Part shown: positions 2,010 to 15,390 of the stretch, piece by piece | Position numbering within the stretch: position 1 is the stretch's first letter | Layout of the letters: each line of letters starts with the position of its first letter | IMG/VR virus record: IMGVR_UViG_3300042691_019876 | Span: 1 to 27,516 of that record | DNA length: 27,516 nucleotides | Direction: 5' to 3' (one strand) | Origin: a virus | Notes under the pieces: model-generated | What the model was told of the DNA's origin: nothing | Seen by the model: only the letters and a program-made list of their open reading frames with translations | Databases searched by the model: none | Translations under genes and position numbers: made by a program

Positions 2010-2810
2010 ATGAAGGACAGAAACATCGGAGTACCCATTAACCAAGAAGAAATTCAACACTATCTTAAAGACATTCGTAAAATTAAGGTCATGACACCTG
2101 AAAGGGAGAAAGAACTTGCAAAAAAAATGAAGTCAGATACACTAACTAAATTTGAGAAAGATAGGGTAGAACAAGAACTATTGGTTGGAAATCTTAGATT
2201 TGTAATTACAGTTGCAAAACAATATCAAAATCAAGGTTTGGACTTATCTGACCTTATTGCTGAGGGTAATTTAGGTCTAATGAAAGCAATTAAAAACTTT
2301 GATTGGAATAAAGACTTAAGATTTATTTCTTATGCGGTATGGTGGGTTAAACAATCAATAATTCAGTCATTAAATGATAATGCAAGAACTATAAGACTCC
2401 CCGTTAATGTAGTTCAAGACTTACAAAGAGCAAAAAAAGAAGTCGAGCAAACAGGTAAAAAAATGAGTGATAAGTTATCAACTTTACCATCTATCATAGA
2501 TTTAGATATGAAGATAAATGAAGATGGAGATACACTTATAGATATGATATCAAATCCTGATGCGGAGTCTCCTGATGCTATCTTTAACACCAAAGATATT
2601 CTCAAAGATAAGTTGGTATCATTGTTAAATGTGTTAGATGAAAGAGAAAAATCAATTATTGGTGATTATTTTGGTTTGACTGGAACACCAAGAACACTTG
2701 AAGACATTGGTTCTGATTTTGGTTTAACTAAAGAGAGAGTTAGACAAATCAAAGAAAAGGCTTTAAGAAGGCTTAGAAATGAATCTTCAGAACTATTTGA
2801 TTATTTATAG
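2010..2810 (+). CDS. Phage-encoded sigma-70 family factor lacking most of region 3
   Basis: RNA polymerase sigma factor of the primary (RpoD/RpoS-like) type, 266 aa. Region 1.2 is at about 10-40 and regions 2.1-2.4 at about 55-130, with SYAVWWVKQSIIQSLND and RTIRLPVNV close to the host housekeeping pattern. Regions 4.1-4.2 are at about 196-260, with the helix-turn-helix TLEDIGSDFGLTKERVRQIK. Between 131 and 160, the part that normally carries the region 3.1 helices is about 25-30 residues shorter than in RpoD. The finger-like stretch (IIDLDMKINEDGDTLIDMI, 162-180) is kept. It probably redirects host RNA polymerase, as T4 gp55 does, although this protein is much more complete than gp55. It is second in a two-gene operon and is followed by structured noncoding DNA with a terminator. 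Confidence 0.92.
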   Translation: MKDRNIGVPINQEEIQHYLKDIRKIKVMTPEREKELAKKMKSDTLTKFEKDRVEQELLVGNLRFVITVAKQYQNQGLDLSDLIAEGNLGLMKAIKNFDWNKDLRFISYAVWWVKQSIIQSLNDNARTIRLPVNVVQDLQRAKKEVEQTGKKMSDKLSTLPSIIDLDMKINEDGDTLIDMISNPDAESPDAIFNTKDILKDKLVSLLNVLDEREKSIIGDYFGLTGTPRTLEDIGSDFGLTKERVRQIKEKALRRLRNESSELFDYL

Positions 2811-2938
2811 TTTTGGGTCGAACCGAGATAACCCTTATAACTCGGCGGAATGAGGCACGAGGTTCTCAAGGTGAAATACCTCAATTGTATCTATATGGTA
2901 CAATGAAACACTTAACCCCATCTTTTGGTGGGGTTTTT
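2811..2938 (+). ncRNA. Candidate structured RNA or 3' UTR with three hairpins and a terminator
   Basis: No gene fits here. The strand folds into successive hairpins: CCGAG (2823-2827) with CTCGG (2841-2845), extended inside by ATAA/TTAT; GAGGT (2859-2863) with ACCTC (2878-2882), which competes with TGAG/CTCA (2851-2854/2865-2868) plus AGGT/ACCT (2869-2872/2878-2881); ATTGTATC (2884-2891) with GGTACAAT (2897-2904) around a TATAT loop; then a strong terminator. It could be a 3' UTR of the sigma mRNA or an independent or processed small RNA. No clear host-type promoter directly precedes it. Confidence 0.5.
2914..2938 (+). terminator. Rho-independent terminator after the sigma operon
   Basis: AACCCCATC (2914-2922) pairs with GGTGGGGTT (2927-2935) around a TTTT loop, followed by TTTTT. 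The nine-pair GC-rich stem ends transcription from the sigma-factor operon. Confidence 0.85.
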
Positions 2939-2939
2939 G

Positions 2940-2947
2940 ATATTTAT
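2940..2947 (+). promoter_or_regulatory. TGATATTTAT element (second promoter class, candidate)
   Basis: The octamer ATATTTAT is preceded by TTTTTG, the same context as at 3495 and 19618. It lies just after a terminator and just before the small-RNA promoter, with no start codon directly downstream, so its role here is unclear. Confidence 0.35.
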
Positions 2948-2957
2948 AAGAAATAAA

Positions 2958-2988
2958 TTTGTTAGTTAACAAAAAAACACTATCTTTG
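2958..2988 (+). promoter_or_regulatory. Consensus Bacteroidota promoter of a short transcript
   Basis: TTTG at 2958-2961, a 19-nt spacer and TATCTTTG at 2981-2988. This is a full match to the host consensus. The predicted start is near 2993-2996, only about 65 nt before a strong terminator. Confidence 0.8.
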
Positions 2989-2993
2989 TAAAA

Positions 2994-3060
2994 CAAACAA
3001 CAGTTCTTTATGTCAGAATACATTTAGAACAACCACAGTCAGAACACTGTGGTTTTTTTT
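2994..3060 (+). ncRNA. Candidate small RNA of about 65 nt (perfect promoter to perfect terminator)
   Basis: Between the promoter ending at 2988 and the terminator at 3031-3060 there is only a short A-rich leader and a five-codon reading frame (3010-3027, MSEYI, TAG stop). The transcript would be about 65 nt. It is either a small regulatory RNA or a leader whose terminator is regulated. The gene beyond it is on the opposite strand, so attenuation of a downstream gene is unlikely. Confidence 0.55.
3031..3060. terminator. Terminator of the small RNA, possibly shared with the minus-strand gene
   Basis: AACCACAGT (3031-3039) pairs perfectly with ACTGTGGTT (3046-3054) around CAGAAC, followed by eight T on the plus strand. 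It lies directly after the stop codon of the minus-strand gene ending at 3059. On the minus strand the T-tract is weak. Confidence 0.85.
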
Positions 3061-3454
3061 ATACAAAAATTTGTAATTGACCTTTACCAACATTGAAGTC
3101 AGATTTTTTCATCACTGTTACAATAATAAGATTCCATTTGGTTGATTCTAATTTTTCTGGTTGAACTACAACATTTAAATTATCGCCTCTTTCTCTTGAA
3201 ACTATAAATCTTCTATTGTGTCTAATATAACCATCTATTATGTTATAAATTATTTGGTCGGTTGCGTTATTTAATAATTTAACAATATCGTAGTCACTTA
3301 TTTTATTTTCAGAACCATGTCTCCATTTTCTTACTTGAGTATGACCATATTCGTCATGATATAAATTGAAATCAAATGTTATTTCTTTATTTATTTCATG
3401 AAATTTTTGTTCTTTCAGAATATTTTTTCTTATTATTTCTTCGAGTAGAGACAT
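3059..3454 (-). CDS. Small protein with a capsid-targeting-like N-terminal helix
   Basis: A 131-residue protein of unknown function. I chose the start at MSLLEEIIRKNILKEQ: the frame can extend five codons upstream, but those codons would overlap the ATATTTAT element at 3459-3466. The first 16 residues form a short amphipathic helix ending in ILKEQ, similar to the starts of the proteins at 7475, 13160 and 19629. The rest is a mixed fold (QVRKWRHG near the front, HNRRFIVSRERGDN in the middle) ending in a beta-rich tail (WNLIIVTVMKKSDFN). No catalytic motif is recognised. Its convergent end lies against the small-RNA terminator. It is likely a late, possibly virion-packaged protein, judging only from the leader and promoter element. 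Confidence 0.7.
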   Translation of the reverse strand: MSLLEEIIRKNILKEQKFHEINKEITFDFNLYHDEYGHTQVRKWRHGSENKISDYDIVKLLNNATDQIIYNIIDGYIRHNRRFIVSRERGDNLNVVVQPEKLESTKWNLIIVTVMKKSDFNVGKGQLQIFV

Positions 3455-3458
3455 AATG

Positions 3459-3466
3459 ATAAATAT
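3459..3466 (-). promoter_or_regulatory. TGATATTTAT element upstream of the 3059-3454 gene
   Basis: Read on the minus strand, TGATATTTATCATTATG places ATATTTAT four bases before the chosen start codon. The stretch ATGATA-AA-TATCAT (3456-3469) is also a near-perfect palindrome. Confidence 0.45.
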
Positions 3467-3494
3467 CATATATGTCCCTTTATTTTATTTTTTG

Positions 3495-3502
3495 ATATTT
3501 AT
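3495..3502 (+). promoter_or_regulatory. TGATATTTAT element upstream of the 3521 operon
   Basis: TTTTGATATTTAT ends 18 nt before the ATG at 3521. It has the same left context as the copies at 2940 and 19618, and faces away from the minus-strand copy at 3459-3466. Confidence 0.45.
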
Positions 3503-3520
3503 TGATTATAATTTACAATT

Positions 3521-4591: not shown

Positions 4592-5184
4592 TAAATATTA
4601 TTGATTTCGGAAATTTTGAAAGTGATTTAATTAATGAAAACAAGAAACAAATAATTTTGATACATAGCGGAAGGTATTCAAACGAATACCTTTTGTCTTT
4701 AAAAAACAGACATAATGGGAATTATAATAAGACACCGAATTATTTTATTTCAAGAAACGGTAAAATATTGAAACTATTAGAAGATAAAAATTATAGTAAA
4801 TTTTTTTATAAAAATGAAATAAATAAAAATTCTATTATAGTATGTTTAGAAAATTTGGGATGGCTAGAAAAAATGTCGTTTAACAAGGGGTACAATAACT
4901 GGGTAGGTTATATTTATAATAGTAATGTATTTGAAAAAAAATGGAGAGATAGATTTTATTGGCATCCATACACAAAAGAACAAGTGGTGTTAACATCAAA
5001 ATTGTGTGTTGAAATAGCAAAGAAAAACTCCATAAAATTAAATATGTTAGGACATAATACAAAGATAAATGGTGTTGAGAAATTTGAAGGTATTGTGACA
5101 AGAAGTAACTATCTAAGTGAAGTTACTGATTTGAGTCCGGCTTTTGATTTTGAACTATTTGAAAAATACTTGAAATATGAATAG
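4588..5184 (+). CDS. N-acetylmuramoyl-L-alanine amidase-like protein (Amidase_2 fold)
   Basis: Probable zinc amidase that cuts the bond between MurNAc and the stem peptide: the phage endolysin or a virion-associated lysin. The order of elements fits Amidase_2/PGRP: IILIHSG (H26 as first zinc ligand), a beta hairpin NYFISRNGKILKL (51-63), SIIVCLENLG (82-91), a helix after WHPYTKEQ (125-132), LGHN (H156 as second ligand) and TDLSPAFDF (180-188), where D181 sits where the third ligand (Cys or Asp) is expected. The length (198 aa) suits a single-domain enzyme. There is no signal peptide, so access to the wall would need a holin or delivery with the virion. It overlaps both neighbours (4 nt upstream, 8 nt downstream). 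The ligand assignment is by pattern, not alignment. Confidence 0.72.
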   Translation: MINIIDFGNFESDLINENKKQIILIHSGRYSNEYLLSLKNRHNGNYNKTPNYFISRNGKILKLLEDKNYSKFFYKNEINKNSIIVCLENLGWLEKMSFNKGYNNWVGYIYNSNVFEKKWRDRFYWHPYTKEQVVLTSKLCVEIAKKNSIKLNMLGHNTKINGVEKFEGIVTRSNYLSEVTDLSPAFDFELFEKYLKYE

Positions 5185-15099: not shown

Positions 15100-15390
15100 A
15101 TGAAAAACGTAGACATAGAAATTTATATTTCAAACTTGATTAGTTTTTTTGAAAACAATCCTAACGATTTAATAAGTTTAATTGGGGATGTCCAAAAACA
15201 AGAATTCTATGAAAAACTAAGAGAAAAATCTGAAAAGAATTTTTCTGAAGGTAATGATTTTGTTTTAACAAGAAATCAAATTGTAGAAATAGTGGTGGAG
15301 TTAAAAATACCACAAATCAAAAATGAGAAAAAGTCTGAGATGGATAGAATCATACAAAAAACAAAATTTGGTGAAATAATTTTGAATTAA
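15100..15390 (+). CDS. Small hypothetical protein
   Basis: A 96-residue helical, acidic-to-neutral protein (ISNLISFFENNPNDLISLIG, FYEKLREKSEKNF, LTRNQIVEIVVELK). No family is recognised. It starts 17 nt after the 640-aa gene behind an A-rich leader (ACATAAA), so it is probably cotranscribed. A host-type promoter for the next gene begins immediately after its stop. Confidence 0.65.
   Translation: MKNVDIEIYISNLISFFENNPNDLISLIGDVQKQEFYEKLREKSEKNFSEGNDFVLTRNQIVEIVVELKIPQIKNEKKSEMDRIIQKTKFGEIILN

Follow-up and report, generated by a model that had tools for sequence, protein, structure and literature searches.

A twin-hairpin small RNA predicted behind a phage sigma-factor gene and facing a convergent protein gene

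The window analyzed here, a 27.5 kb IMG/VR virus record, very probably contains a genuine phage small-RNA gene, as judged from its promoter, terminator and fold and from 22 distinct homologues; its transcription is predicted. The RNA would form two hairpins that carry the same six-base loop (Table 1), and its function is probably carried by these loops and not merely by termination. It converges on a small protein gene, here called gene 3. The best explanation as a whole, to which we assign a probability of roughly 0.4 from comparative sequence evidence, is that the RNA acts in trans as an RNA partner, or antitoxin-like regulator, of gene 3. The preliminary description of this locus had proposed a small regulatory RNA; it lacked hairpin 1 and hence the twin loops, and it named neither the slot of alternative RNAs in which the unit resides nor the linkage to gene 3.

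Table 1. Features of the twin-hairpin locus and of related small RNAs. Positions are those of the window unless a contig is named.
Feature	Position	Strand	Description
Sigma factor gene (phage RNA polymerase)	2010..2810	+	266 aa; PHROG phrog_351, E 1.5e-55; marks the small-RNA slot
Type 2 RNA	2815..2940	+	directly behind the sigma gene; without its own promoter here; terminator 2914-2935
Bacteroidota sigma-A type promoter	2958..2988	+	TTTG 2958-2961, 19-nt spacer, TATCTTTG 2981-2988
Twin-hairpin small RNA, type 1a (predicted)	~2993..3060	+	~66 nt; fold, homologues, covariance model R1
Hairpin 1	3003..3030	+	GUUCU-UU-AUGU-[CAGAAU]-ACAU-UU-AGAAC
Hairpin 2 = intrinsic terminator	3031..3060	+	AACCACAGU-[CAGAAC]-ACUGUGGUU plus U6
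Gene 3	3059..3454	-	131 aa from the MSLLEE start (136 aa from 3469); stop codon 3059-3061
Types 3 and 4	L234:4372-4517, L240:4373-4518, L250:4373-4518; L224:2842-3001, L009:5660-5819		promoter-driven families
Single-case small RNAs facing gene 3	L151:4695-4812; L148 about 5050-5170

The promoter, first described simply as host-type, conforms to the Bacteroidota sigma-A type. Because the -7 box of the Flavobacterium primary sigma factor, TAnnTTTG, lies at -12 to -5 (PMC9723704), the same spacing from the corresponding box in the window puts the likely +1 at 2993. The promoter pattern by itself is weak evidence and is not rare in the window, where it has five matches against 2.0 expected; there are 13 terminator-like sites where 4.7 would be expected. 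What makes the unit convincing is the RNA fold together with its conservation. The predicted RNA folds better than 200 of 200 shuffled sequences (z -4.84), and its two hairpins have the hexaloop motif GU-CAGAAY-AC in common (GU-CAGAAU-AC in hairpin 1, GU-CAGAAC-AC in hairpin 2). In hairpin 2 the stem-loop itself spans 3031-3054, nine pairs closing a six-base loop, with Ts behind it. The nine pairs of the terminator thus stand as originally described, whereas the eight Ts do not all form a tail: they follow GG, two of them within the stem and six beyond it. Contig L002 (IMGVR_UViG_3300031857_000169, 62.9 kb) has an identical sequence at this locus. A comparison with Rfam (Rfam 15) at gathering and permissive thresholds gave nothing convincing for the twin-hairpin RNA, and nothing at the gathering score.

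The GUUCUU arm of hairpin 1 in the window resembles a boxA-like leader, AGUUCUUUGA, and some variants of the hairpin do not have GUUCUU. Leaders of this AGUUCUUUGA-like kind follow a host-type promoter and precede a phage tmRNA and another RNA region (G018 at 205744 and 220248; G015 at 45754). Related large phages also carry a tmRNA gene (L283:299-691, L292:5280-5697, L281/L282), and about 25 tRNA genes are present in G018.

About 30 contigs of uncultured phages contain the twin-hairpin unit, and their stems differ by compensatory changes, so the conservation in related phages that had been named as a check on the first proposal is indeed found. The first homologue search covered 2.9 million viral contigs with a pattern demanding two CAGAAY-type loops and returned about 23 true homologues; the pattern matches in L083, L084, L090, L091, L093, L095, L099, L101, L103, L108, L114 and L116 were discarded by eye as repeats or coding sequence. 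Among 14 distinct sequences, 96% of the cells were paired and two-sided changes were seen in 7 pairs. With later finds included (22 distinct homologues), 94.9% of the cells were paired and 9 of 18 pairs showed two-sided changes, as against 32-54% of cells paired in slid-alignment controls. RNAalifold recovered the same two-hairpin structure from the homologue alignment. Cultured phages, searched both by DNA and by element, contained no twin-hairpin unit, and the flanking proteins have only distant relatives there. The strict twin pattern found no true copy in 85,000 bacterial and archaeal genomes; its one match, in Mycolicibacterium, lies in a tandem-repeat array and is unrelated.

Since the first search required the loops, loop constancy was assessed by two further searches in which the loop was left free. 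Hairpin 2 with any six-base loop matched 36 stretches, comprising 29 homologues and 7 unrelated sequences; the loop was CAGAA[U/C/A] in 29/29 homologues and different in all 7 unrelated matches. The corresponding search with hairpin 1 gave 15 matches, one of them unrelated, and the 14 homologues all had CAGAAU (14/14). When hairpin 2 was searched with its loop fixed and hairpin 1 unspecified, every match also had hairpin 1, although in the one odd case, L226/L322, it has a variant form. Covariance searches of unselected sigma-gene loci and of whole contigs returned only the known copies and a variant, type 1b (L222, L075, L226), which has the same two-hexaloop architecture with other loop letters (CNUCAU / CANNGC in place of the CAGAAY of type 1a). 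Covariation and loop constancy together establish two hairpins presenting one hexaloop.

In most phages the unit occupies what we call slot A, either immediately after the sigma-factor gene or one or two genes beyond it; in others it lies in slot B, where it forms the 3′ UTR of a gene for 98 aa with a homologue at 15100-15390 in the window. Its own promoter precedes most slot-A homologues and is absent in slot B and in a few other cases. The unit is accessory, being carried by few of about 100 sampled sigma-gene contigs, and whole-contig searches found no second copy in the same contig. A portable, single-copy element of this kind speaks for action in trans. In L003:5801-6000, where the sigma factor is 95% identical to that of the window, a single GTCAGAATAC is left and gene 3 is missing, as if the two loop copies had recombined.

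The slot behind the sigma gene is also used by unrelated small RNAs, of which there are at least five. Close relatives carry different structured RNAs in slot A, often with the same kind of promoter, and the content of the slot turns over between them. The type 2 RNA has a probable 5′ pseudoknot (GGGU/ACCC with CCGAG/CUCGG), two more hairpins and a terminator; in its 42 distinct copies from related loci, compensatory changes affect 16 of 29 predicted pairs. Types 4, 3 and 2 stand in a row in L012. The RNA of L151 is of a different kind, yet it carries a GU-CAGAAU-AC hairpin. None of these alternative RNAs matched Rfam at the gathering score.

The gene next to the RNA is on the opposite strand, as first stated, and its stop codon overlaps the 3′ tail of the RNA. 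With the next gene convergent and no co-directional gene downstream, the earlier conclusion that the unit is not an attenuator also holds. Gene 3 was present in 35 of 129 distinct sigma loci, and in every one of these (35/35) a small RNA faces it. An RNA of type 1, 2, 4 or 5 was recognized at 33 of them; in L232 a promoter and a type 2 RNA lie just beyond the scanned stretch, and L148 has an unclassified promoter-RNA-terminator unit. An RNA of such a kind was also present at 31 of the 94 loci without gene 3. In the loci examined gene 3 thus always came with a facing RNA, while many RNAs stood without gene 3, a pattern that resembles the logic of toxin-antitoxin systems. Among type 1 RNAs, promoter-bearing copies accompany gene 3 and promoterless copies reside in contigs without it; the L009/L333 phage has a promoterless copy away from gene 3. 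Type 2 provides exceptions to this rule (L030, L034, L035).

In a quick tree of gene 3 with several long branches, the genes facing type 1a and the L151 RNA form one clade with type 1b as its sister, and types 2 and 4 branch off elsewhere; the RNA-type labels can be placed on the tree with only five changes. The agreement between RNA type and gene-3 phylogeny is suggestive, and because the two are physically adjacent it may reflect co-inheritance. No Pfam family matched gene 3 above threshold (DUF4258 appeared below threshold in 1 of 23 members, E 0.001), and PDB sequences gave only weak matches and no solved relative. Gene 3 begins with a short, conserved, amphipathic N-terminus, SLLRESIRKHLLLE, ahead of a variable body; as a speculation, this could be a capsid-targeting peptide of an injected protein. 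Boxes like AATAAATA/TATTTAT, which recall T4-type late promoters, lie upstream of gene 3 and its neighbors (window about 3455-3510, minus strand, and homologues); the promoters of the small RNAs, by contrast, are of the host type.

If the RNA is a partner of gene 3, the locus might work as follows. Host-type RNA polymerase would start at about 2993 and stop at about 3060, producing an RNA with two hairpins that each display GU-CAGAAY-AC. The promoter-bearing RNA and gene 3 form a cassette, as their genomic association shows. The RNA would act in trans, its loops binding either the gene-3 protein or a factor on which that protein acts, and this binding would restrain or guide the protein or its factor in an antitoxin-like manner. 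In phages without gene 3, the promoterless copies that follow other genes as their 3′ UTRs would be orphans of the same RNA with an immunity or regulatory role. A partnership in this specific form is tentative: the type 1b loops differ and types 1 and 2 often occur without gene 3, and a toxin-antitoxin-like arrangement is disfavored by the convergent orientation of the genes and by the lack of a recognized toxin domain in gene 3. On a wider scale, the locus could represent a new phage RNA-protein module, a proposal that we consider rather unlikely. In such a module an RNA gene would lie convergent with the gene for a fast-evolving protein of about 130-150 aa behind the sigma gene, at least five unrelated and interchangeable RNA kinds would face this gene, each matched to a clade, and RNA-only copies would serve as immunity or decoy RNAs.

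The preliminary description had suggested a regulatory RNA, a decoy or a sponge. In seven phage contigs, full complements of the loops were confined to the element, except in G015, which had two more hits, and the gene-3 mRNAs had no conserved site; conserved complementary sites in phage mRNAs, by which an antisense sRNA would be recognized, were thus found in neither set. It is therefore unlikely that the RNA is a sponge for phage mRNAs or regulates them by antisense pairing; the RNA may instead be a partner of the gene-3 protein or act as a decoy that captures a host factor. The same dearth of phage targets favors a small RNA directed at the host, whose twin loops would base-pair with transcripts of the host or titrate one of its RNA-binding proteins or an RNA-sensing defence, in each case independently of gene 3; RNA and gene 3 would then merely share a location in an exchangeable cassette. 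The persistence of promoterless copies without gene 3, a host-type promoter suggestive of early expression, and the turnover of the slot among close relatives, as expected of an arms race, are all consistent with this idea, which we hold to be possible rather than probable. It does not account for the presence of a facing small RNA at every gene-3 locus or for the match between RNA type and gene-3 clade. Antisense pairing with the gene-3 mRNA itself, in which the overlapping 3′ ends would meet tail to tail, would fit the convergent transcripts, and because the stop codon overlaps the RNA tail, the 3′ UTR of a gene-3 read-through transcript would be complementary to the RNA. Such pairing would require no conserved loop sequence, however, loop-complementary sites within gene 3 are not conserved, and the twin-hairpin RNA is retained at sites away from gene 3 as well, which together make this mechanism very improbable.

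A purely structural role has somewhat better grounds than antisense pairing, although we still regard it as improbable. The unit could be a strong terminator or insulator, possibly bidirectional, between the sigma transcript and gene 3, with hairpin 1 and the promoter as accessories. Several phages have the unit directly after an ORF without a promoter. Read on the reverse strand, hairpin 2 folds as well, has a U-rich stretch behind it and could terminate the convergent gene 3. However, a pure terminator would need neither a promoter directly before it, nor a second hairpin, nor a loop fixed in 29/29 homologues, and the terminator of the type 2 RNA already lies upstream in the window. That the product is instead a short peptide or leader seems hardly credible. 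The five-codon frame MSEYI noted originally does lie between promoter and terminator and begins with ATG in the window and in L082, but its start and stop are not kept in the homologues: others have TTG, some read through, and L334, L337 and L011 have no start codon. The conserved letters are explained by hairpin pairing, and the peptide was rejected because the five-codon ORF is not conserved. The original proposal of a small non-coding RNA is borne out to the extent that the predicted RNA combines its own promoter where it faces gene 3, an intrinsic terminator and a conserved structure without a conserved ORF.

Post-transcriptional control in Bacteroidota phages has been little explored. The twin-hairpin RNA provides a compact, conserved family with a clear signature that can be scored in genomes, and it marks a hotspot of structured-RNA exchange beside a phage sigma factor. 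The association with gene 3 leads to a specific and testable hypothesis, namely that the gene-3 protein binds the RNA or is neutralized by it.

The kind of RNA described here is known: trans-acting sRNAs encoded by phages have been reviewed (PMC12197685), and the twin-hairpin RNA resembles them as a short non-coding phage RNA with its own promoter and an intrinsic terminator. Neither Rfam, nor cultured-phage records, nor a limited literature search yielded the family itself, the anatomy of its twin loops or a slot in which RNAs are exchanged beside a matched protein gene. The family differs from known phage sRNAs in its twin identical loops, in its occurrence in uncultured Bacteroidota-type phages and in having no Rfam entry or known target. 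RNA anti-CRISPRs (Racrs) are likewise solitary small phage RNAs (PMC10651486), and the twin-hairpin RNA might similarly be a structural decoy. In contrast to a Racr, its twin hairpins share a loop and not a repeat, and its CRISPR-DR50 score of 16.7 bits against a gathering score of 47 is at chance level, the comparison being with CRISPR repeat models. RNAs of the CsrB/RsmZ type titrate a protein through several hairpins with the same loop motif, GGA; the repeated loop motif is alike, whereas the loop here is CAGAAY and there are only two hairpins. To our knowledge, CsrA is generally absent from Bacteroidota. In type III (ToxIN-like) toxin-antitoxin systems, a small structured RNA with a tandem repeat array lies beside a small protein gene in a co-directional operon. 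Gene 3, by contrast, is convergent in all loci and not downstream and co-directional, has no ToxN-family match, and faces an RNA without a tandem repeat array. The likeness, besides the pairing of such an RNA with a small protein gene, is that the kind of RNA follows the clade of the protein and that, in the loci seen, the RNA occurs without the protein gene and not the reverse.
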